Below, piece by piece: positions 4,805 through 14,310 of a stretch of 46,501 nucleotides of DNA. The DNA is from an uncultured Lachnospiraceae bacterium (GTDB lineage Bacteria > Bacillota > Clostridia > Lachnospirales > Lachnospiraceae). The stretch lies in contig CANPZZ010000004.1 in assembly GCA_947589125.1 (NCBI GenBank), positions 1-46,501 of the forward strand, read 5' to 3'. Position 1 is the stretch's first letter. The number at the start of each line of letters is the position of its first letter. The notes beneath the pieces are model-generated. The model was given only the letters and a program-made list of their open reading frames with translations, did no database searches and had not been told where the DNA came from. Position numbers and translations under genes: made by a program.

Positions 4805-6592
4805 TCAGCATGTTGCTCCTACGCTGCTGTCTTTCCGTTTTTCTTCCTCGGTAAGCGCCTGGAATGGCACAAGATCGTGATGTACCTTCGCCAGGTCATT
4901 GCGGCTGGCCTTGTCGGTTGAACCGCTGTATACATAACCTTCCGAGCGCATATACGCGTTCCAGCGCCTGTGCTCCAGATCCTCCAGCAGGTCGCGCTCC
5001 TTTAGAGTAAGTTCCTCCGTATCCTTGCCCGCCCCCGGCATTTTGCAGGCAATCCTCGCCCTGCGGTGAATCGCCGAAGCGACCGACGAACGGTAATTGT
5101 ACTCATACCGCCAGAACTCAGCTTCCTCGCCCCATTTTAAGTGACCCTTCAGGGCTTCCGCCTCCAGTTCCGAACTGATAATGACCTTTTCAGACCAGAA
5201 GGATCTTTCATCACCGATAAATTCAAGTCGGTAGGGCTGGCCGCGGTAATTCCGGATGTCCTTAAGAGCCTCCTTCCGCTCCGAATGCCCGACCACCGCC
5301 ACGATCTGCGGATCGGAACCGTAACGGGCCGTCAGCATTCGCATCTCGGCCGCCATACGGATATTGGCCTCATCGGACCCCAGCGACACAAATACATAAG
5401 TAACGGCCGGAAGCTGCCTTATCATATCATTAAACTGCTTCGTCTGCACATCAATGCCGGGATGAATCCGTATCGTATACTCTGCCTCTCCCGGGATCTT
5501 CCTGCCGTTCAGCCGATCGGAGAGAAGCTCGGGACAGGCCGCTCCGAACCGTTCCTCCGACAGAGGATCGCTGTCAAACGCGTCGATCTCGACCCGGTAC
5601 CCGTCCATCTGGCAATACCACGACAGAGCCTTCACCATCTCTGTGCCGTAGCGGTCCATTCCCACGATAACGGCGGAAATGAGCTTTTCACCATCCGGCT
5701 GCAGCCGGACGTTTTCAAAAAGCCGGTGCCCTTCCTCATAAAGGGTATGGCTGATCAGGGAGCGCACGGGATTGATGCGCCTTACGCGCATCTGCTTCTG
5801 CGACGCTTCCATCAGGAGCAGCTCGCCTTCCGTCTCTGTGGAGACTACATACATTTCCGCATGTTCCCAGTCTCCGTACTGTCCGGCAAGCCCCAGGGCG
5901 CCGGTCAGATTCTTCTGCTCATCGTCGGAAATGAGGAAAAAGACCAGCTTCGCGTTCCGGTTTCTATAGCCGAAGCGCAGGCTCAGAATATCCTTCCGGA
6001 GACACACGGCGTCAATGGCGTGGGCGCCCGTGAGCAGTTCCTGGCTTACGCCGTCCCCGGCATCAGCAAAAGCAATGATATGTTTTTCTTTCGTCCGGGC
6101 AAGATCCTCCGCCAGCGCTAAAGAGCGTTCCTCCAGTCCCGAGAACACATACATCGTCTGCGAACGGAACAGCAGGCAGCGGAGATTGGCCGTAAAATCG
6201 TTGAAGAACGAGATCACGAACCCGAAGGTCAGGACCGGCGCTGTGATAAAGGCTACTGTCATATAGACGGAATAGGCGGAATAAATAACGCCCGCCCTGC
6301 TGCTGAGCGTATCCAGAATAAAGGTGCAGCTTACATTGATCGTAAACACCTGTATGGTATTGTGCACGGAATATACCAGCACCTTCAGCACGCGGCAGGA
6401 ACTGTCGCCCACGATTTCCGTATAGATCGGCAGGAAGCTGACCGCAACGGAAAGGAATATCCCCGCGAACAGAACCTGGATAGGCGGGAGCAGCCTTCCG
6501 TCCTTCCGGTTCGACACAGCGGACAGGACCGCGGCCAGAACCGTCACCGCCGCGATACCGACTGCCGCAAAGAAACAGACATACCAGATCAT
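4805..6592 (-). CDS. Membrane protein with Rossmann-like domains and C-terminal RyR domain
   Basis: This 595-residue protein begins with about four hydrophobic helices in residues 1-140. Two nucleotide-binding-like alpha/beta segments follow: one near 145-250 (TMYVFSGLEERSLALAEDLA) and one near 310-360 (AVIVGMDRYGTEMVKALSW), similar in layout to TrkA-N Rossmann domains. Residues 530-590 match the RyR repeat, with LEHRRWNAY, EGYVYSG and HHDLVPFQALTEEEK. RyR domains occur in ryanodine receptors and in some bacterial signalling proteins. It is the last gene of the patatin/TIR/STAND operon, 24 bases after the STAND gene, with AGGAGG 11 bases before the ATG. It shares its architecture with the divergent gene at 11153. 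A role as a membrane sensor or effector responding to a nucleotide ligand is inference; no enzymatic residues are recognisable. Confidence 0.8.
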   Translation of the reverse strand: MIWYVCFFAAVGIAAVTVLAAVLSAVSNRKDGRLLPPIQVLFAGIFLSVAVSFLPIYTEIVGDSSCRVLKVLVYSVHNTIQVFTINVSCTFILDTLSSRAGVIYSAYSVYMTVAFITAPVLTFGFVISFFNDFTANLRCLLFRSQTMYVFSGLEERSLALAEDLARTKEKHIIAFADAGDGVSQELLTGAHAIDAVCLRKDILSLRFGYRNRNAKLVFFLISDDEQKNLTGALGLAGQYGDWEHAEMYVVSTETEGELLLMEASQKQMRVRRINPVRSLISHTLYEEGHRLFENVRLQPDGEKLISAVIVGMDRYGTEMVKALSWYCQMDGYRVEIDAFDSDPLSEERFGAACPELLSDRLNGRKIPGEAEYTIRIHPGIDVQTKQFNDMIRQLPAVTYVFVSLGSDEANIRMAAEMRMLTARYGSDPQIVAVVGHSERKEALKDIRNYRGQPYRLEFIGDERSFWSEKVIISSELEAEALKGHLKWGEEAEFWRYEYNYRSSVASAIHRRARIACKMPGAGKDTEELTLKERDLLEDLEHRRWNAYMRSEGYVYSGSTDKASRNDLAKVHHDLVPFQALTEEEKRKDSSVGATC

Positions 6593-6616
6593 TGGGACAA
6601 TGTCCTCCTATTTACG

Positions 6617-8860
6617 TCATACTTTCTCACTGGAAGCATCGATCATGCGCGGGAAAAGGAATTCCTGCGTCAGGTGCACCGTGCAGGCGTAGGCGACCAG
6701 AAGCGAGAACATAACCGTCTCCACAAAGATCAGATAGGGAGCGAAGCTTCGGTTGGTCAGCCAGAAGAACACATGTCCGAAGGCGAATACGGATCCCATC
6801 ATCATCGACTTGATCCCGTAGGCGTGAAGCTCGGCCTGGCAGTTCTTCTGATAATGATTGTCCAGCAGCAGATAAATATCCGCCGCCGCTACCACCAGAT
6901 CAATGCTGTCCAGGAACAGGAAATGGGGATAGGCCACCACCGCCATCACAGCCATGATCATCTGCACTGCATAGCAGCATTTGCATTTCCACATCGCCCT
7001 TCCGCGGAAGAACTTTACGATACAGTCATACATCCGGCACAGGTAGATCACGCTGATCAGCGTGACGATCAGCGGGAAAAGCGGGAAGTAACTGCCGTAC
7101 GGATTGGCGGCCGTCCAGACTGTGGTCCACGGATTCCACACGAAGGCTTCCACGAAAAAGCCGATCAGCATCACCACGATGGCCGCGATCGTCGCGTTGC
7201 GGAAGAACTTGTCCTGAAGCTCGCGGCGGCAATGGTCGTGCTTCTCCTTCAGGGCATCCTTCAGTTCGGCGTTGCTGTACTCGGACAGGATCAGATCCAG
7301 CGAATTCTTTACGTTCCGGTTCATGCCGTGCTCGCAGTATTTGAGGAATTCCTGGGCAATGAAATCATGGGCGATCTCATACTCCTGCCTGCTGCCCTCG
7401 CTGCTGCGGCGGATCATCTGCATCGCCTCCAGCTGGTCCAGCGTCTCCATAAAGGACTTGTGGCCCTCCGGTCCGAACTGGTTCGGCAGCACGCCGCTCT
7501 CCACGTCTTCCGTTTTCAGGAAGATCTGCTCGGAACGGGCCTTGCTGTATATATACAGCAGCCGGGTCGCGAGGAAATGGTTCGTACACGTCGCCAGCTG
7601 AATATCGAAGTACTCGTCCAGCAGCTCGGAGCTGTTCTTCTGGATCATATCCTGCAGTTCCTCATCCGGCAGCGCGTGGACCTTCTGATTGAATTCCGCC
7701 ATATGGAAAACGATCTGCTTCTCGATCAGGGGTTCATGCTCATGCCGGGCAAAAAAGGCTTCTCCCGCTTTGCCGAAAAGCCGGCGGCATTTGTCCAGGA
7801 TCACCGAATAGCTGCCTTTGCTTCCGTCGATCTGGACCGAAACATTGCTTTCATTCTGGCAGTAAAACATCGTGATCCCCATCTGCTCCAGGGATACCTG
7901 TGCGATCTGGGAAAACGGGGAATTCAGATAGGTCTTGTTGTTGCTCTTGATGCTGCTTCCGGACCAGGACACCGTGCGCGCGGGCCGGATAATGCCGTTC
8001 TCCCTCTGATCGGCCGGGTTCCTCCAGATAATGCTCATAAGCTCACGGAAAATACCTTTAGACAGCGAATGCTCCTTCGCCGCCGGATCCGCCTTCAGAT
8101 CGTTCATATCAAACTGCTTCAGGAAATCGGCGAGATACTCCTCTCTCATGGAAAGGATCACCGCCGTGTTCCGGCAGCAAAGGGCGCGGATGACCCTGCG
8201 CACGCTCGACTGTTCCGCGGAATCAAGGAAGAAGAAACGTTCAAACTGATCGAGTATGATCACAACCTTTTGCCTGGCCGCCAGATTCGACAGCTTCACG
8301 TCGATATTGGTGCCGAACAGCTCTGTCATCCTCGATTCCAGTTCATGATAGTTACCCGAAAAATCATAGCAGAGATACTCGTCCCTGGTCGCCTCGCGGA
8401 AGAAATTCACGATCGTGGATTTGCCGCATCCGGAGGGTCCCACCAGACAAAGGGCCTGCTTGACGGCGCTCTGCGGGAAAATGATCTCCTCCAGCACCTT
8501 TATCATACAGGCGACCTCCTCGTCGCGCTGGATCACGTCCGCCGACGCGCCAAGCTCCTCGCCTTTCAGATCATGCAGTCCGAGGAACTGAAATCCCGGC
8601 TGCCGGGTGTAGGGCCGGATCCGGATCTCCCGCTTCCGTGAAAAAAGGAAAATGAACAGAAATCCCGGGATCCCGACCGCGGCATAGATCAGTACGCGGT
8701 ACAGAACCGGAAGACGGCTGGCCAGCACATCCGCCACGGAGACCAGCCACAGAGAGATCAGCACGCTGCTGATGATTCCGAATACGATCTGGGGAACACC
8801 GTATATATTATAGTTTTTCTTTTCCGCCTGTTTCACCTCACTGCGAAGCTTCGCATTCAT
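6617..8860 (-). CDS. Membrane-embedded STAND/AAA-type P-loop NTPase
   Basis: This is a 747-residue protein. Two transmembrane helices lie at about 23-45 and 53-75. The cytoplasmic NTPase follows, with Walker A GPSGCGKST at 141-149, Walker B VVIILDQFER at 199-208, and a sensor-like strand AVILSMREEYL near 233. A helical region extends to about 540, and four to six further hydrophobic helices fill 550-740. The DQFER Walker B and the following arginine-rich helical region resemble STAND NTPases that act as switches in cell-death and antiphage systems. It is 12 bases downstream of the TIR gene and has AGGAGG 8 bases before its ATG, so it is part of the same operon. The large C-terminal membrane region could be a pore-forming or membrane-sensing module; that is inference. 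No close named family is recognised. Confidence 0.78.
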   Translation of the reverse strand: MNAKLRSEVKQAEKKNYNIYGVPQIVFGIISSVLISLWLVSVADVLASRLPVLYRVLIYAAVGIPGFLFIFLFSRKREIRIRPYTRQPGFQFLGLHDLKGEELGASADVIQRDEEVACMIKVLEEIIFPQSAVKQALCLVGPSGCGKSTIVNFFREATRDEYLCYDFSGNYHELESRMTELFGTNIDVKLSNLAARQKVVIILDQFERFFFLDSAEQSSVRRVIRALCCRNTAVILSMREEYLADFLKQFDMNDLKADPAAKEHSLSKGIFRELMSIIWRNPADQRENGIIRPARTVSWSGSSIKSNNKTYLNSPFSQIAQVSLEQMGITMFYCQNESNVSVQIDGSKGSYSVILDKCRRLFGKAGEAFFARHEHEPLIEKQIVFHMAEFNQKVHALPDEELQDMIQKNSSELLDEYFDIQLATCTNHFLATRLLYIYSKARSEQIFLKTEDVESGVLPNQFGPEGHKSFMETLDQLEAMQMIRRSSEGSRQEYEIAHDFIAQEFLKYCEHGMNRNVKNSLDLILSEYSNAELKDALKEKHDHCRRELQDKFFRNATIAAIVVMLIGFFVEAFVWNPWTTVWTAANPYGSYFPLFPLIVTLISVIYLCRMYDCIVKFFRGRAMWKCKCCYAVQMIMAVMAVVAYPHFLFLDSIDLVVAAADIYLLLDNHYQKNCQAELHAYGIKSMMMGSVFAFGHVFFWLTNRSFAPYLIFVETVMFSLLVAYACTVHLTQEFLFPRMIDASSEKV

Positions 8861-8872
8861 ACCGTATTCCTC

Positions 8873-10084
8873 CTATCTCAGACTGTATTCCTGGCATTTC
8901 CGCAGCGCCGGTTCCGCTTCGGCAATGCCGTTGTCTCTGGCCATCCGGTAACAGTTCGCCGCCTGCACGTATTCGCCGCGGCCCTCATGCAGTTTCCCAA
9001 GACAGTACGACGCCTCCGGGATCGCGTTCTCGCCGAACGCGATCTTGCGGTATGTCTGGATCGCCTTCTCCGGGCTCGACTGCTCCAGCATACGCGCGTA
9101 ATTATACAGCGCCGGCGCGTAGCCGCTTTCCGACGCCTTGCTGAAATACCGCAGCGCCTCCGAGTCGTCCGTATCTACGGAAATCCCGTTCTTATAGTAA
9201 TATCCGATCGCGTTAAGCGCCGGCGGATACGGGTCCGCCTCACGGTAAAGCTCCATCGCTTTCTTGTAATCCCGCTTTTCCTCCGCGAGATTGCCCAGAC
9301 GGAACGCCGCGGGCTTGAAATTCAGGGCGCGCGCTTTCTCATACAGCTCCTGCGCTTTCTCATACAGAATCGCCTGCATCTCTTCTATCCCGCTTACATG
9401 CTCTTTGATCTCAATGCCATAATCCGCCATTCTCGTCACATCGGCGCCGCACCGCTCGTACACATCCGCCAGATTATAGAGCGCCGCCGGACTGCCTTTC
9501 TCCGCCGCGCGCCTGTACCACACAAACGCCTGCTGCTGGTGTACGCCCTCATCCGTACCAAGCTCATAACGGAGACCGAGGTCGTTCATCGCCTGCACAT
9601 TTCCTTCCTCGGCCGCCTTCCGGAGCTGTTCGTTCGTCAGATCTCCGTGGGACGGCGTGCTCTTCAGGAAGGAAACCAGCTTTTCGATCGTCTTATCAAA
9701 ATACTCATGATTCTCATGCACGCCGTTCAGCTTTGTGATCGGCGCGATATCCGCCGGAAGATTGCTCGGGAATTCAAAGTTCTTCATCATGAACGGAATC
9801 ACGTTCTTATGATACTCCAGCGAATGGGCAATCTCCCTCCGCACCCAGTCGTCCTCGGATACACAGCGGTCGAGCCCTCTCGGCGGCAAAACGACCACTA
9901 CGTCGACGCTCTGGTCTATGTAATCATACAGCGCCTCGTCAAACCGTCCCTCCTTCAAGGCTTCCACGTCCAGAAAAACCTTATAGCCGATCTTTTCAAG
10001 CCTTTCTTCGATCAGACGGGACAGATTCTCCCCTCCGTCCCTTCTGTAACTGATAAATACCTGATAAGGATCTGACGAAACCAT
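8873..10084 (-). CDS. TIR domain protein with Sel1-like repeats
   Basis: The protein has 403 residues from the chosen start. TIR features are VFISYRRDGGENL (10-22), YKVFLDVEAL (34-43), DVVVVLPP (61-68) and DDWVRREIAHSLEYHKNVIP (78-97). The glutamate in WVRREI (Glu84) aligns by eye with the catalytic glutamate of the NADase SARM1, whose motif reads DWVHKEI. Residues from about 150 to the end form Sel1/TPR-like helical repeats (AAEEGNVQAMNDLGLRYE, AAEKGSPAALYNLADVYE, ASESGYAPALYNYARMLE), a typical protein-binding or sensing array. The frame is open to 10159, but the ATG at 10084 is preferred because AGGTGAAGG precedes it at good distance. That puts the start 7 bases after the patatin stop. The expected chemistry is NAD cleavage giving ADP-ribose or a cyclic derivative; this is family inference. 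Confidence 0.88.
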   Translation of the reverse strand: MVSSDPYQVFISYRRDGGENLSRLIEERLEKIGYKVFLDVEALKEGRFDEALYDYIDQSVDVVVVLPPRGLDRCVSEDDWVRREIAHSLEYHKNVIPFMMKNFEFPSNLPADIAPITKLNGVHENHEYFDKTIEKLVSFLKSTPSHGDLTNEQLRKAAEEGNVQAMNDLGLRYELGTDEGVHQQQAFVWYRRAAEKGSPAALYNLADVYERCGADVTRMADYGIEIKEHVSGIEEMQAILYEKAQELYEKARALNFKPAAFRLGNLAEEKRDYKKAMELYREADPYPPALNAIGYYYKNGISVDTDDSEALRYFSKASESGYAPALYNYARMLEQSSPEKAIQTYRKIAFGENAIPEASYCLGKLHEGRGEYVQAANCYRMARDNGIAEAEPALRKCQEYSLR

Positions 10085-10091
10085 ATGCCCT

Positions 10092-10946
10092 TCACCTGCC
10101 TTCTTCTGTATTCTGAATAAATGCCGGGATCTGCTCCGCGGCTTTATAGGCATCCTCATAGAGCTTCTGAAGGATCGCCTTATCTTTCGTCAGCGTTTTC
10201 ATTCCATAGATCGACTCCGGCGCTATGATAAGCGCTTTCCCCTCTTTCACGTACTGCATAAGCTCCAGCAGCTGCCGCTGGTACAGCATCGCCTGTCTGC
10301 GCACGCCGTCCACCATCGCCGGAAATTCGCGCCGGATCAGATTGGAAACAAACTTCCTTGACTCTGTGCCTTCCTCCAGTACCGGCGGCTTGGTCAGAAT
10401 CACAACAACGCGGCTGCAGCCGTCCGCGAACGCTTTCTTAAAGGGAATCGGATCGCTGACGCCTCCGTCATAATACGGCTCCCCGCCGATAACGTAGGGC
10501 CGGTTTACGATCGGAATACTGCAGGACGCTTTCAGGATATCATAATGATCCTGGGAGAGATCGTCTTTTGTAAAATAGACCGGTTTGCATGTACTTGCGG
10601 ACGTCGCGACCACATAAAGGCGCATGTCCGACGCCGCAACAGCCGGATAATCAAGCGGCCGCTCCCCGTCCTTCCGATACAGCGTTCCGTAAATATAATC
10701 CATATCCAGATAGGAACGTTTTCGGAAAAAATTGCCAAAGCCCATGTATTCCTTACGGAAGGAATAATCAATAAAATAATCATAATTCCTTCCGCGCTGC
10801 CCGGCCGCATAAGAAACAATATTGGCGCTTCCCGCGGAAACGCCGATCCCGTACTCGAACCGGATCCCGTGATCCATGCAGTAATCCGTCACACCTGCCC
10901 CGAAAATACCTCTCAGGCCGCCGCCGACATCCACCAAACCAATCAT
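10092..10946 (-). CDS. Patatin-like phospholipase
   Basis: This 284-residue protein is a complete patatin-family lipase. The oxyanion loop is GGGLRG at 8-13, the nucleophile elbow is GVSAGS at 35-40 with Ser37, and the catalytic aspartate is in DGG at 160-162. These three elements make the Ser-Asp dyad of phospholipase A enzymes. The N-terminal fold (MIGLVDVGGG) and lack of a signal peptide match the cytoplasmic patatin family found in many Firmicutes. It is the first gene of the minus-strand operon that continues with TIR-Sel1, STAND and RyR genes. A similar lipase is the effector of some CBASS antiphage systems, where it degrades the host membrane once activated by a nucleotide. A role as an effector here is inference from the company it keeps. 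Confidence 0.92.
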   Translation of the reverse strand: MIGLVDVGGGLRGIFGAGVTDYCMDHGIRFEYGIGVSAGSANIVSYAAGQRGRNYDYFIDYSFRKEYMGFGNFFRKRSYLDMDYIYGTLYRKDGERPLDYPAVAASDMRLYVVATSASTCKPVYFTKDDLSQDHYDILKASCSIPIVNRPYVIGGEPYYDGGVSDPIPFKKAFADGCSRVVVILTKPPVLEEGTESRKFVSNLIRREFPAMVDGVRRQAMLYQRQLLELMQYVKEGKALIIAPESIYGMKTLTKDKAILQKLYEDAYKAAEQIPAFIQNTEEGR

Positions 10947-10975
10947 ACTTTTTTACCCATCCTTTCCTGCAGATA

Positions 10976-10981
10976 ATTATA
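10976..10981 (-). promoter_or_regulatory. Candidate -10 element of the patatin-TIR-STAND-RyR operon
   Basis: A TATAAT on the minus strand lies 30 bases before the patatin start codon. No good -35 hexamer is found 16-18 bases upstream, which suggests low basal activity or a need for an activator. An AGGAAAGG ribosome binding region lies between this element and the ATG. Confidence 0.5.
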
Positions 10982-11023
10982 CTACCTTCCATCAAAAATG
11001 TATAGTTTGATTTCGACATTTTC

Positions 11024-11052
11024 TTGAAATACGGTCATTTTTATAATATAAT
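11024..11052 (+). promoter_or_regulatory. Strong sigma-A type promoter of the divergent RyR gene
   Basis: TTGAAA at 11024-11029, a 17-base spacer, and TATAAT at 11047-11052 make a near-consensus promoter for the plus-strand gene that starts at 11153. It shares the divergent intergenic region with the operon promoter on the other strand. The -10 element is perfect, in contrast to the weak signal driving the effector operon. Confidence 0.75.
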
Positions 11053-11152
11053 CAGTAAGAAATAAAAGGCTCTGGTGTGCGGAAGCCGATGCTCTCCGCC
11101 TGTAACAGCTTCATCATATCCGGGCCAAATATATAAGATCGGAAGAGATGTC

Positions 11153-12535
11153 ATGAAAAAGAATGTTCTGAAGAAAACTGCCAAACTTATAAAAGAAATC
11201 TGGATGATACTGCCCTTCTTTCTGGCGTTATATTGTTATTACCCTGTATTCCTGACGCAGGCAAACCGCCGGTACCCGCTTTTGGACGCCATATACGAAG
11301 CGCTCAGGATCTATCGGGGATTCACCTCAAGCGGCGTGGAAGTCGGCGCACTGCTGGAGATCGCCAGGTATATGGCCCTGGCTGCCGTTGTACGCATTCT
11401 GATCGCGCTGTTCAGCAAGGCGGAGGATCTTATCAACTGGCTGAAGCTGCGTACCACACGATCCACTGTGGTATACGGAGATTCAGAATACGCGGGCTAC
11501 CTTTTCGAGAGCCTTCCTCCCTCGCAGCGGATCCGGGGCGGGAAACGGTTCATCGCGGGTGCGTCCCGTTACCTGCTGATGTTTTCAGAAGATGAGAAAA
11601 ACATCGCCTTTTTTCATGCGCATTACCGACAGATAAAGGATCAGAACGTGTATATCATGCTCAACGGTGTCTCCGGACAGAATATCGATAATCCCCGGAT
11701 TACGGCCTTCAGCATCGCGGAGAACTGCGCGCGCTGGTATTGGAGAACATATCCGGTACTCGCGAATGAGAAGATCGCGGTCATCGGATTCGGCGACATC
11801 GGCTCTAATCTGCTTCTCTACGGGCTCCAGGTCAATCTGATCGACCCTGCCCAGCATATGGAATACCATATTTTCGGGGACAGCGGCGAATTTCGGAAGG
11901 AGCATATCGAGCTCGACAAAATGGCGCCTGATGAGATCTTCTTTCATGAAAGCGGCGTCCCGGACTATGCGCACATGGCCGAATACGACAGGATCATCCT
12001 GTGCGGAGACGGCGACGCGAACCGGAATATACGTACGCTCAGCAAACTGCTCGCCGCGCTGCCGCAGACACAGCAGGTCTATGTCTATGCGCCGGACGGC
12101 GATATCATTTCCAGCCTGTTCGGGGCAGACCGGGTGACCTGCTTCGGATCTGCCTGCGAAATCGCGACCATCGACATGATCCTGAATCAGAAGTCCATGG
12201 AAGCGGCCCGCATGCAGCACGAATACTATACGGCCAGATACGGCGGCCTGCCGTGGGAGAAGCTTGACAGCTTCACCCGGTACTCCAACATCAGCTCGTC
12301 GGACTACATGTACGTGACGGACCGTTTGCTCGCGGAAGGCGTACCGGTAGAAACGCTGGCGGAATTAGAGCATATCCGGTGGTGCCGCTTCTACTATCTG
12401 CACAACTGGAAATATGCGCCGGAGACAGACGCGGCCAGGCGCCTGCATCGCTGCCTGGTTCCGTTCGCCGAGCTGAGCGAAGAGGATAAGAAAAAGGACA
12501 TCGAAGCCATCCAGTCCAAGAAACTCCAGAAATAA
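11153..12535 (+). CDS. Second membrane/Rossmann/RyR-domain protein
   Basis: This protein has 460 residues from the chosen ATG. Two membrane segments lie at about 15-37 and 63-85. A Rossmann-like part follows: STVVYGDSEYAGYLF near 105, then EKIAVIGFGDIGSNLL near 205, with a GxGxxG-like nucleotide-binding turn. Residues 402-450 form an RyR domain: LAELEHIRWCRFYYLHNW, HRCLVPFAELSEEDKKKD. Its C-terminus aligns well with that of the 595-residue operon protein (shared LEHxRW, LVPF and acidic-lysine motifs), while the N-terminal halves have diverged. The frame is open from 11075, but GGAAGAG seven bases before the ATG at 11153 supports this start. It is divergently transcribed from the patatin operon. 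A paired sensor or regulator role is inference. Confidence 0.8.
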   Translation: MKKNVLKKTAKLIKEIWMILPFFLALYCYYPVFLTQANRRYPLLDAIYEALRIYRGFTSSGVEVGALLEIARYMALAAVVRILIALFSKAEDLINWLKLRTTRSTVVYGDSEYAGYLFESLPPSQRIRGGKRFIAGASRYLLMFSEDEKNIAFFHAHYRQIKDQNVYIMLNGVSGQNIDNPRITAFSIAENCARWYWRTYPVLANEKIAVIGFGDIGSNLLLYGLQVNLIDPAQHMEYHIFGDSGEFRKEHIELDKMAPDEIFFHESGVPDYAHMAEYDRIILCGDGDANRNIRTLSKLLAALPQTQQVYVYAPDGDIISSLFGADRVTCFGSACEIATIDMILNQKSMEAARMQHEYYTARYGGLPWEKLDSFTRYSNISSSDYMYVTDRLLAEGVPVETLAELEHIRWCRFYYLHNWKYAPETDAARRLHRCLVPFAELSEEDKKKDIEAIQSKKLQK

Positions 12536-13383: not shown

Positions 13384-13439
13384 CCGCGGCCCGGCCATTC
13401 GAGTTCATTTCTGTTCCGCGGCCCGGTCATTCAAGTCCG
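13384..13439. repeat. Imperfect 23-bp direct repeat at the end of the kinase gene
   Basis: CCGCGGCCCGG followed by CATTC and a purine-rich end occurs at 13384-13406 and again at 13417-13439, with three mismatches. The second copy covers the last codons and stop of the kinase gene, so the first copy looks like a duplicated gene end. The very GC-rich palindromic core might also act as a terminator between the convergent genes, although no T-run is present. Confidence 0.55.
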
Positions 13440-13990
13440 CGGCCGGTCAGCTTCGCGATATCCTCTTTGCTCCAGAATTCATTTTCCCAGTAAAAATATT
13501 CACTCTTTCTCTTCTTGAAGATCCGGAACGGAATGTCGGTATTATCGTAAATATGGCAGATATCGCATATCTCCAGGAGCTCCGGGATCAGGCCAAGCGC
13601 TCGGACATACCGTTCTTTGATCTTGTCCACGGGAACGCTGTGCCCGCCGGAGGCGAACCTGCGCATCACGCGATGAACGTTGATATTCACATCCGAAGTC
13701 AGCACATAGATACACCGGATAAAATATCCCTGCTCCCTCGCCCTGCGCAGAAGATTAATGTTGCGGTGCGTGGACATTACTGTCTCAAATGTAAAACTCT
13801 TATGAATATCCAGCGCGTATTCGCGCATATCCTCCGCAAGCTCGGCGGCCTCCAGATCTGTGCACGCCGTCGCCCGCTTGATGTCGTCCGCGTTGATGTA
13901 GGGCCTGATGATCTTCGCCGCCTTTGTGACCGTGCTTTTGCCGCTGCCGTTCGGCCCCGCAAAGACGATGATCTCAGGTTTCCTCTCCAT
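13427..13990 (-). CDS. Zeta-toxin-like P-loop kinase
   Basis: This 187-residue protein has VFAGPNGSGKST (Walker A) at residues 9-20 and the DDIKRA and FTFETVMST stretches typical of zeta-toxin/AAA_33 kinases. The conserved Glu and Thr after the P-loop are at FTFETVMS near 67. A lid arginine pair sits in HRVMRRFASGGHSVP. Zeta toxins phosphorylate UDP-N-acetylglucosamine and block cell wall synthesis; chromosomal relatives may have other small-molecule targets. The upstream gene overlaps it by 17 bases and may encode an antitoxin, giving an antitoxin-first order. GGAGG lies 7 bases before the ATG. A decayed relative occurs at 4638-4797. Kinase fold is firm, toxicity is inference. Confidence 0.82.
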   Translation of the reverse strand: MERKPEIIVFAGPNGSGKSTVTKAAKIIRPYINADDIKRATACTDLEAAELAEDMREYALDIHKSFTFETVMSTHRNINLLRRAREQGYFIRCIYVLTSDVNINVHRVMRRFASGGHSVPVDKIKERYVRALGLIPELLEICDICHIYDNTDIPFRIFKKRKSEYFYWENEFWSKEDIAKLTGRGLE

Positions 13991-14264
13991 ATACTCGCCT
14001 CCCGTCCGGATATTCTATATAGGACGCCTTTTTCTCATAGTCATAGCCTGTGACCGGCAGCCCCTGGCTCCGGTTCGTCTCGTTCTCCTGCCGGATCACC
14101 TCGCGGAAACGGCGGACGAACTCGTCGTCGGCGACGCCGCAGGTAGAATCCAGTTCATTGGGCGCGGGCAGATTATTCTCCTGCTCTCTCAGCGCCTCGT
14201 AAAAACCCTTAAGGATACTTTCCTTCGCTTCCTGGCCTTTATCCGGGTCGTTCTGATGATCCAT
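13974..14264 (-). CDS. Small acidic protein, possible antitoxin of the kinase
   Basis: The product has 96 residues and is hydrophilic and acidic, with repeated Glu/Asp/Asn. It starts MDHQNDPDKGQEAKESILKG and contains a predicted helix ILKGFYEALREQENN and a basic C-terminal end. I do not recognise a named family. Its stop lies 17 bases inside the downstream kinase gene, so the two are translationally coupled, as in toxin-antitoxin pairs. The frame is open to an ATG at 14306, but that codon overlaps a TATAAT at 14305-14310. The ATG at 14264 has AAGGGGA eight bases upstream, so it is chosen. No DNA-binding motif is obvious. Confidence 0.65.
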   Translation of the reverse strand: MDHQNDPDKGQEAKESILKGFYEALREQENNLPAPNELDSTCGVADDEFVRRFREVIRQENETNRSQGLPVTGYDYEKKASYIEYPDGRRVYGEET

Positions 14265-14304
14265 GTGCACATCCCCTTCCCATGAAAATACTTCCGTAAT
14301 TTTC

Positions 14305-14310
14305 ATTATA
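14305..14310 (-). promoter_or_regulatory. -10 element before the kinase operon
   Basis: A TATAAT on the minus strand lies 41 bases before the preferred ATG at 14264. The 17-base upstream hexamer is TTTCAT, a poor -35. Its overlap with the earlier ATG argues that the longer reading frame is not used. Confidence 0.5.

Follow-up and report, generated by a model that had tools for sequence, protein, structure and literature searches.

Organization of the Locus

The window analyzed here is a 46,501-nucleotide stretch of contig CANPZZ010000004.1 (assembly GCA_947589125.1) from an uncultured Lachnospiraceae bacterium. Between positions 4805 and 12535 it holds a compact locus of five genes, encoding a TIR protein, a STAND NTPase, a patatin-like phospholipase, and two membrane proteins with ryanodine receptor (RyR) domains, which we label RyRA and RyRB. 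An earlier annotation of the same DNA, referred to below as the original prediction, had located all five genes correctly. Its spacing of 7, 12, and 24 bases between the four minus-strand genes also holds, given the ATG at 10084 as the start of the TIR gene. The features of the locus are as follows.

10092..10946, minus strand: patatin-like phospholipase with DUF6363 (Pfam PF01734, 71 bits; Ser37/Asp160)
8873..10084, minus strand: TIR-Sel1 protein of 403 residues, with a SARM1-like TIR domain at about residues 9-117 and Sel1/TPR repeats behind it
6617..8860, minus strand: membrane STAND NTPase (nSTAND1) of 747 residues, assigned from Pfam and Walker motifs, with hydrophobic segments at both ends
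4805..6592, minus strand: RyRB, 595 residues, with three N-terminal hydrophobic segments, a Rossmann part, and a C-terminal RyR domain
4823..4972, minus strand: RyR domain of RyRB, which alone does not reach the Pfam cut-off
11153..12535, plus strand: RyRA, 460 residues, with a hydrophobic N terminus (about residues 16-91), a Rossmann part with GFGxxG, and a C-terminal RyR domain
12347..12514, plus strand: RyR domain of RyRA, with ligand residues H407, W410, H432, and D449
10976..11052, both strands: divergent promoter-like pair between the two transcription units, from a sequence scan

The 206 bases between the patatin and RyRA genes carry promoter-like sites on either strand, TATACA-17-TATAAT on the minus strand (11004-10976) and TTGAAA-17-TATAAT on the plus strand (11024-11052). 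Seven such sites were found over the 8.3 kb scanned, compared with 6.2 expected, and it is only by position and strength that this pair stands out. RyRA is transcribed divergently, as had been predicted, but its listed start, a GTG at 11075, was not retained. The ATG at 11153 is the likelier start because the promoter-like site ends at 11052 and a GGAAG stretch precedes this codon. The Ser-Asp dyad of the patatin, described as intact, is indeed so: Ser37 (in GVSAGS) and Asp160 (in DGG) are invariant in all four locus-linked patatins.

The TIR-Sel1 and STAND Proteins

The TIR protein matched the Pfam families TIR_2 (42 bits) and Sel1 (54 bits). A PDB search with its TIR domain returned the SARM1/TIR-1 NAD+-cleaving enzymes (NADases) with E values of 9e-28 to 5e-26; the sole other match was the IL-1 receptor accessory protein, at 0.0038. 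The NADase glutamate that the original prediction had noted is invariant in 8 of 8 aligned TIR-Sel1 proteins and in 19 of 19 TIR domains of a wider alignment. The first of these alignments (A6) omits locus L016, in which the TIR frame is interrupted near residue 40, and locus L018. In SARM1 the counterpart of this glutamate is E642. The TIR domain of SARM1 itself branches within a bacterial clade according to a 2026 preprint (PMC13142454).

The STAND protein matched nSTAND1 at 31.3 bits (cut-off 27.1), with the Walker A motif GPSGCGKST and the Walker B motif VVIILDQFER. A Pfam scan found no nuclease domain in it. Alignment A5 omits L018, which is a near copy of L019, and L021, which is cut by a contig end.

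RyR Domains and Their Ligand Residues

The RyR domain of RyRA scored about 35.6-35.7 bits, which passes the PF02026 cut-off of 27.4. In RyRB both the RyR domain (about 17.3-20.6 bits) and the TrkA_N match (15.8 bits) fall below the Pfam cut-offs. RyRB can, however, be aligned with longer relatives, and its RyR ligand residues are retained. PDB matches of the RyR domain were the R12 repeats of ryanodine receptors together with bacterial RyR structures. TrkA_N was matched by 5 of 25 RyR proteins, weakly, and an Arcobacter relative exceeded the cut-off (36.9 bits).

As reported in PMC13232231, the phage protein RyDEP recognizes the cyclic ADP-ribose (cADPR) isomer 3'cADPR through H75, W78, H100, and D117, and hydrolyzes both 2'cADPR and 3'cADPR. 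The equivalent residues of RyRA are H407, W410, H432, and D449, with the same spacing of 3/22/17, and those of RyRB are H541, W544, H571, and D588, spaced 3/27/17. The HxxW-H-D ligand residues are invariant in 11 of 11 RyRA-family proteins (alignment A4). With a loose pattern the full four-residue set was found in 35 of 46 RyR proteins and was incomplete in 11; a few of the pattern matches (L103_2152, L126, L128) are probably misplaced.

Large proteins of 1299-1449 residues recur upstream of RyRB-type genes (L126, 864-5195; L128, 2617-6516; L131, 2937-7286; L125, 3817-7761). The one of the four that was checked, from L126, had no Pfam match.

A Conserved TIR-STAND Core with Exchangeable Partners

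A STAND profile run against the genome collection retrieved 12 loci. Nine are relatives; the remaining three (L023-L025) contain different STAND proteins. With the window the set comprises 10 loci, three of which (L018, L019, and L020) share one site and represent one lineage. In all 10 a TIR gene whose product aligns with the window TIR protein directly precedes the STAND gene. A RyRA-type protein is encoded in 6 of the 8 loci that could be checked downstream (the window, L016, L017, L018, L019, and L020; L014 and L021 were not checkable), and its placement differs: divergent in the window, five genes on in L017, and split into two frames in L018. Patatin genes occur in 4 of the 10 loci (the window, L014, L016, and L022), again placed variably. 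All four kinds of gene, TIR, STAND, patatin, and RyR, form a single run in L016; L015 has TIR and STAND with neither RyR nor patatin.

The recurrence of this gene order in other genomes shows that the locus is more than a chance arrangement. TIR precedes STAND in 10 of 10 loci, whereas RyR is found in 6 of 8 and patatin in 4 of 10. TIR-Sel1 and STAND thus form the conserved core, to which RyR and patatin are exchangeable partners. The proposal that the full gene set forms one unit was therefore abandoned, as RyR and patatin come and go among the loci.

A full-length relative of the STAND protein is present in 3 of 299 genomes of the family, including the genome of the window; the host genome, G230, and G021 belong to the same family. 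Among the matches listed from a phylum-wide search with a TIR-Sel1 profile (398 genomes), which Sel1 repeats dominated, no full-length relative besides the window protein was seen. Profile scans of viral sequences with RyRA and STAND found no relative. Nothing was found by tblastn with STAND and RyRB in plasmids or with RyRA in phages, nor by megablast of the locus in plasmids.

Two features of L017 may be recorded here. A second TIR protein (6684-7688, plus strand; TIR_2, 67.8 bits) is encoded two genes before the TIR-Sel1 gene, and one of the five genes between STAND and RyR encodes a conjugative coupling protein.

Recurrent Proximity of TIR and RyR Genes

The association of TIR with RyR extends beyond relatives of the locus. 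It was examined in 47 genomes selected because they matched RyR, 26 of them through PF02026 and 21 through similarity to RyRB. Five of the 47 had no PF02026 match, and the test, from which G000 was excluded, covered 45 RyR loci defined by PF02026. TIR was counted as Pfam TIR_2, and the expectation was derived from the number of TIR matches per genome with 200,000 simulations. A TIR_2 match lay within 5 kb of 16 of the 45 RyR loci compared with 0.37 expected, the maximum in any simulation being 5. For RyR proteins of at least 440 residues the count was 11 of 34 (0.27 expected). In the part of the phylum sample outside the class, TIR was near 4 of 5 RyR loci (0.034 expected), two of the five being on one contig. 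Some of the sampled genomes are related, G415 and G482 sharing one family and G552 and G618 another. Neighborhoods were examined for 20 of the RyR places found by PF02026, mostly of long proteins, and for 20 of the 22 genomes found by similarity to RyRB (without G000 and G163).

The TIR partners of RyR are of many architectures, with Sel1, TPR, LRR, MORN, or WD40-like parts and in one case an AAA part. The closest relatives of the window RyRA, in L140 and L142 (58-59% identical), have as neighbors a TIR-MORN protein and a different TIR protein; the stretch examined contained no STAND relative.

As a control in the same genomes, patatin was within 5 kb of 0 of the 45 RyR loci. There were 60 patatin matches to 93 for TIR, so that this control indicates no link but has little power alone. 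Patatin was accordingly rejected as a general partner of RyR; within the scanned locus set it was found only with the TIR-STAND core.

In a tree of 44 RyR membrane proteins, no fewer than 13 changes are needed for the label "TIR near," and the starred branches force 9 of these. Counts as low arose in 108 of 500 shuffles, and the label is thus not clustered beyond what shuffling gives. This scatter partly answers the limits that relatedness and sampling place on the co-location test. RyRA-type proteins linked to TIR and STAND occupy four separate places in the tree, showing that partners have been exchanged, and this exchange favors a chemical signal held in common over a single fixed protein complex. 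The tree omits L018 (RyR split), L089 and L094 (near copies), L136 (a fragment), the RyR proteins of L096-L102, the second RyR of L138, and short RyR proteins. Among L096-L102 a TIR neighbor was present at L097 and L098 and none was found at the others.

Stand-alone RyR proteins of about 100 residues were observed beside TIR genes (G567:C96, G614:C14, G488:C11, G154:C16, L103 4252-4563, and L104 2134-2430); these may be sponges or hydrolases of the signal that the host itself encodes. The human fecal phage records MT836850.1 (1153-1431) and MT837259.1 (940-1209) each encode a stretch that shares about 50% identity with the small L103 protein. Genome G773, which belongs to another class, has three matches to TIR and two to RyR in a 21-kb part of contig C7 (121508-142339).

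RyR Domains Fused to K+ Channel Pores

Sixty genomes of the family were searched for Ion_trans_2, and seven places were picked by size. Six of the proteins, from five genomes, consist of a K+ channel pore followed by the same Rossmann part as in RyRA and a RyR domain; the seventh (L187), also a K+ channel, did not match RyR. The selectivity filter of the fusions is TVGYG (TSVGYG in L188). Ion_trans_2 is over its cut-off in all six and RyR in four, the other two scoring 26.0-26.1 bits. The Rossmann and RyR parts of the fusions are homologous to those of RyRA-type proteins, with E values of 2e-49 to 2e-57 in a six-sequence search. Judged from this homology, RyRA is channel-like in design.

A strong hhalign match of RyRA to a K+ channel profile was traced to two K+ channel-RyR fusions in that profile and not to ordinary channels. 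With the RyR domain cut off, PDB searches ranked the Rossmann parts of E1 enzymes first (6e-4).

In L185 a RyRB-like gene adjoins the K+ channel-RyR gene, and in the same genome a TIR gene lies about 12 kb from the fusion. The most telling relative is L190, in which RyRB-like, K+ channel-RyR, and TIR genes stand in a row. The window pairs a RyRA-type with a RyRB-type protein in the manner of the L185 pair, which suggests that RyRA and RyRB form a two-subunit receiver. A Macro-domain protein (155.7 bits) is encoded in L188 (125-1198, plus strand), about 4 kb and five reading frames before the K+ channel-RyR gene.

Proposed Mechanism and Alternatives

The domains, the TIR-STAND core, the recurrent proximity of TIR and RyR across RyR lineages, the kept residues, and the K+ channel fusions were all computed directly. 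On this basis we propose, with moderate confidence, that the locus encodes a TIR-based signaling system in which RyR-domain membrane proteins serve as receivers. A trigger would be sensed by the membrane STAND NTPase, by the Sel1 repeats of the TIR protein, or by both. The SARM1-like TIR domain would then convert NAD+ to an ADP-ribose signal, most likely a cADPR isomer. The signal would bind the RyR pockets of RyRA and RyRB, where the ligand residues are kept and whose phage counterparts bind 2'cADPR and 3'cADPR. Binding would shift the Rossmann gating part, the same part that is fused to K+ channel pores, and so alter ion flow across the membrane. Patatin, where present, may add damage to membrane lipids, and the infected or stressed cell would cease growth.

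The original prediction is partly supported. Its suggestion that the TIR product acts as a signal with RyR membrane proteins downstream agrees with the phage RyR work of PMC13232231 and with the TIR-RyR linkage. Its assignment of patatin as the effector and of RyR as a sensor or gate fares less well: RyR is the recurrent partner of TIR and has an ion channel-like design, and patatin was not seen near RyR in the control described above.

We infer a role in defense from the patchy presence of the locus, its exchanged parts, the TIR and STAND domains, the phage genes that counter such signals, and an Arcobacter gene row. This row (L192 6925-10648, on plasmid CP146529.1 of Arcobacter sp. AZ-2023, a member of another phylum) encodes TrkA_N, RyR, and DUF4062-TPR proteins; the R gene of a type I restriction system and an integrase are a few genes away. 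A further DUF4062 protein, of 1276 residues (L143 3214-7044, minus strand), adjoins a RyRA-type gene and is a possible TIR-like NADase partner.

Several observations weigh against RyR proteins as receivers of the TIR signal. The membrane parts of RyRA and of the fusions match weakly (hhalign probability 36%, P = 4e-4), and that of RyRA gives 0.5% with ordinary K+ channels. The TVGYG-type filter is absent from both RyRA and RyRB. PDB searches without the RyR domain returned no significant channel, the best being YnaI at E = 2.9. A TIR gene adjoins one of the six K+ channel fusions (L190) and none was found in the other five fetched stretches. In the co-location test 29 of the 45 RyR loci had no TIR within 5 kb, although some contigs are short; the query for part of the sample was the TIR-linked RyRB of this locus, and the null ignores contig ends and the general clustering of defense genes. 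No RyR was present in the stretch examined at L015 and L022, both of which have TIR and STAND. RyRA-like genes of one genus (L086, L089-L091), whose genomes have 1 to 4 TIR matches each, sit by eye among housekeeping-looking genes, and some of the RyR proteins may work in trans or belong to a different pathway. The TIR-STAND loci themselves lie mostly among ordinary genes, as judged by eye from reading frames and a few Pfam checks. Finally, the catalytic dyad of RyDEP is kept, so that RyR could be an off-switch.

The last point leads to the main rival, in which the RyR proteins are brakes that sequester or hydrolyze the TIR product and return ADP-ribose, and killing results from NAD+ loss through TIR or from lipid damage by patatin. 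Phage RyR proteins do act as a glycosidase or sponge (PMC13232231), and both the His and the Asp of the RyDEP dyad are present in RyRA and RyRB. Retention of these residues need not mean hydrolysis, however, because in the same source 6 of 8 RyDEP homologues tested bound signals and none besides RyDEP itself cleaved them. The membrane and Rossmann parts of RyRA and RyRB would moreover be superfluous in a soluble brake, and relatives have a K+ channel pore; the small stand-alone RyR proteins beside TIR genes (e.g. in G567, G614, and G488) suit the role better. We consider the brake unlikely for the membrane proteins of this locus.

The composition of L015, with neither RyR nor patatin, would suit a different arrangement in which TIR and STAND are a self-contained abortive system that depletes NAD+, and patatin and RyR are passengers or separate neighbors. 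SARM1 itself kills through NAD+ loss, according to PMC13142454. Such an arrangement appears improbable to us given that RyR genes are near TIR genes far more often than by chance, with TIR proteins of many architectures, and that, in both the window and L016, RyR and patatin belong to one close run of genes.

A non-immune function was also considered, in which the state of NAD+ gates K+ channel-like proteins in osmotic, envelope, or stress physiology. The apparently housekeeping context of the orphan RyRA genes is conserved, and this function would accommodate it together with the ordinary-looking surroundings of most TIR-STAND loci. Against it stand the patchy presence of the STAND relatives, the exchange of parts between loci, and the Arcobacter plasmid, where an integrase and a type I restriction gene lie near the RyR-DUF4062 pair; we regard it as the least probable of these alternatives.

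Returning to RyR proteins as receivers, a more general proposal can be put forward tentatively, with somewhat less confidence than the reading of the locus itself: that bacteria use cADPR-gated RyR-domain ion channel proteins as TIR immune effectors, with the messenger made by a SARM1-like TIR and received by an RCK-type channel protein through its RyR domain.

Comparison with Known Systems

In NCBIfam and PADLOC the locus matched no named system, as the original prediction had suspected. No NCBIfam model reached its cut-off for the five window proteins, and the PADLOC matches, to TIR, ATPase, and phospholipase models, were only weak or partial. The same held in PADLOC for ten proteins from five related loci, one of the matches being to a general TPR model at 5e-25.

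Thoeris, which pairs a ThsB TIR with a ThsA-type effector, is alike in having a TIR protein with the NADase glutamate beside a putative receiver of an ADP-ribose-derived signal, receivers varying by type. Described Thoeris effectors include the SIR2-SLOG, Macro-TM, and caspase-like kinds. In the window, by contrast, the candidate receiver is a RyR-domain membrane protein and there is an additional STAND gene; no Thoeris-type SIR2-SLOG, Macro, or caspase-like gene was found among ten proteins scanned around the locus. The window TIR matches ThsB models weakly (PADLOC, 24.9 bits; NCBIfam ThcB4, 37.3 bits with a cut-off of 220). A type VI Thoeris is named in PMC13232231, and the Yirmiya 2025 survey is cited for its signaling through 2'cADPR.

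RyDEP and other PF02026 proteins share with RyRA and RyRB the RyR domain and the four ligand residues. RyDEP, however, is an anti-defense protein of a phage, whereas RyRA and RyRB are bacterial, carry hydrophobic and Rossmann parts, and are encoded beside a TIR gene. Among PDB chains SARM1/TIR-1 is closest to the window TIR, but no ARM or SAM domain was found in the window protein by Pfam scan. The resemblance to animal ryanodine receptors lies in the R12-like RyR domain; the window lacks the ryanodine receptor pore, and TIR and RyR are separate proteins of one locus. RCK-gated K+ channels also combine N-terminal membrane and Rossmann parts, and relatives of RyRA carry TVGYG-type pores, but RyRA has no filter and its C-terminal ligand domain is RyR.

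A patatin fold is held in common with the patatin effectors of CBASS, and a STAND NTPase with Avs-type systems. A reading of the locus as CBASS or Avs was rejected, as no CD-NTase was found among the ten proteins around the locus and no nuclease was found fused to STAND.

The DUF4062 protein Swarozyc is another NAD+-cutting, TIR-like defense protein, and DUF4062 adjoins RyR in L143 and on the Arcobacter plasmid. The enzyme of the window is instead a TIR_2-type TIR. PMC13174449 describes DUF4062 as a TIR-like defense NADase and gives ADP-ribose as the Swarozyc product; the words RyR and ryanodine are absent from its main text.

Among the literature matches listed for RyR domains and TIR signals, PMC13232231 stood alone, and its accessible text concerns phage proteins and contains no bacterial TIR-RyR operon. 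The same terms occur in PMC13288928, and PMC7789669 names PF02026. The TIR-RyR locus may represent a new form of TIR signaling, although a 2015 survey of nucleotide-based conflict systems or the Yirmiya 2025 TIR survey could hold part of it.

TIR enzymes signal to a growing list of receivers. If the proposal is correct, a RyR domain on a channel-like protein would be a new class of effector for them and a bacterial form of the link between cADPR and the ryanodine receptor in animals. It would also point to cADPR sensing as the role of the RyR R12 domain before its incorporation into a calcium channel. There would be a reason for phages to have RyR proteins that remove cADPR isomers, because a host receiver with the same fold would provide a ready source of the gene. 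The long-argued question of where, if at all, cADPR binds RyR domains and gates ion flow would become directly testable in small bacterial proteins.

Genes Adjacent to the Locus

Beside the locus, a Zeta-toxin-like kinase (PF06414, 40.8 bits) is encoded at 13427-13990 on the minus strand and overlaps a small gene at 13974-14306 on the same strand. The small gene has no Pfam match, and together the two are a possible toxin-antitoxin pair.

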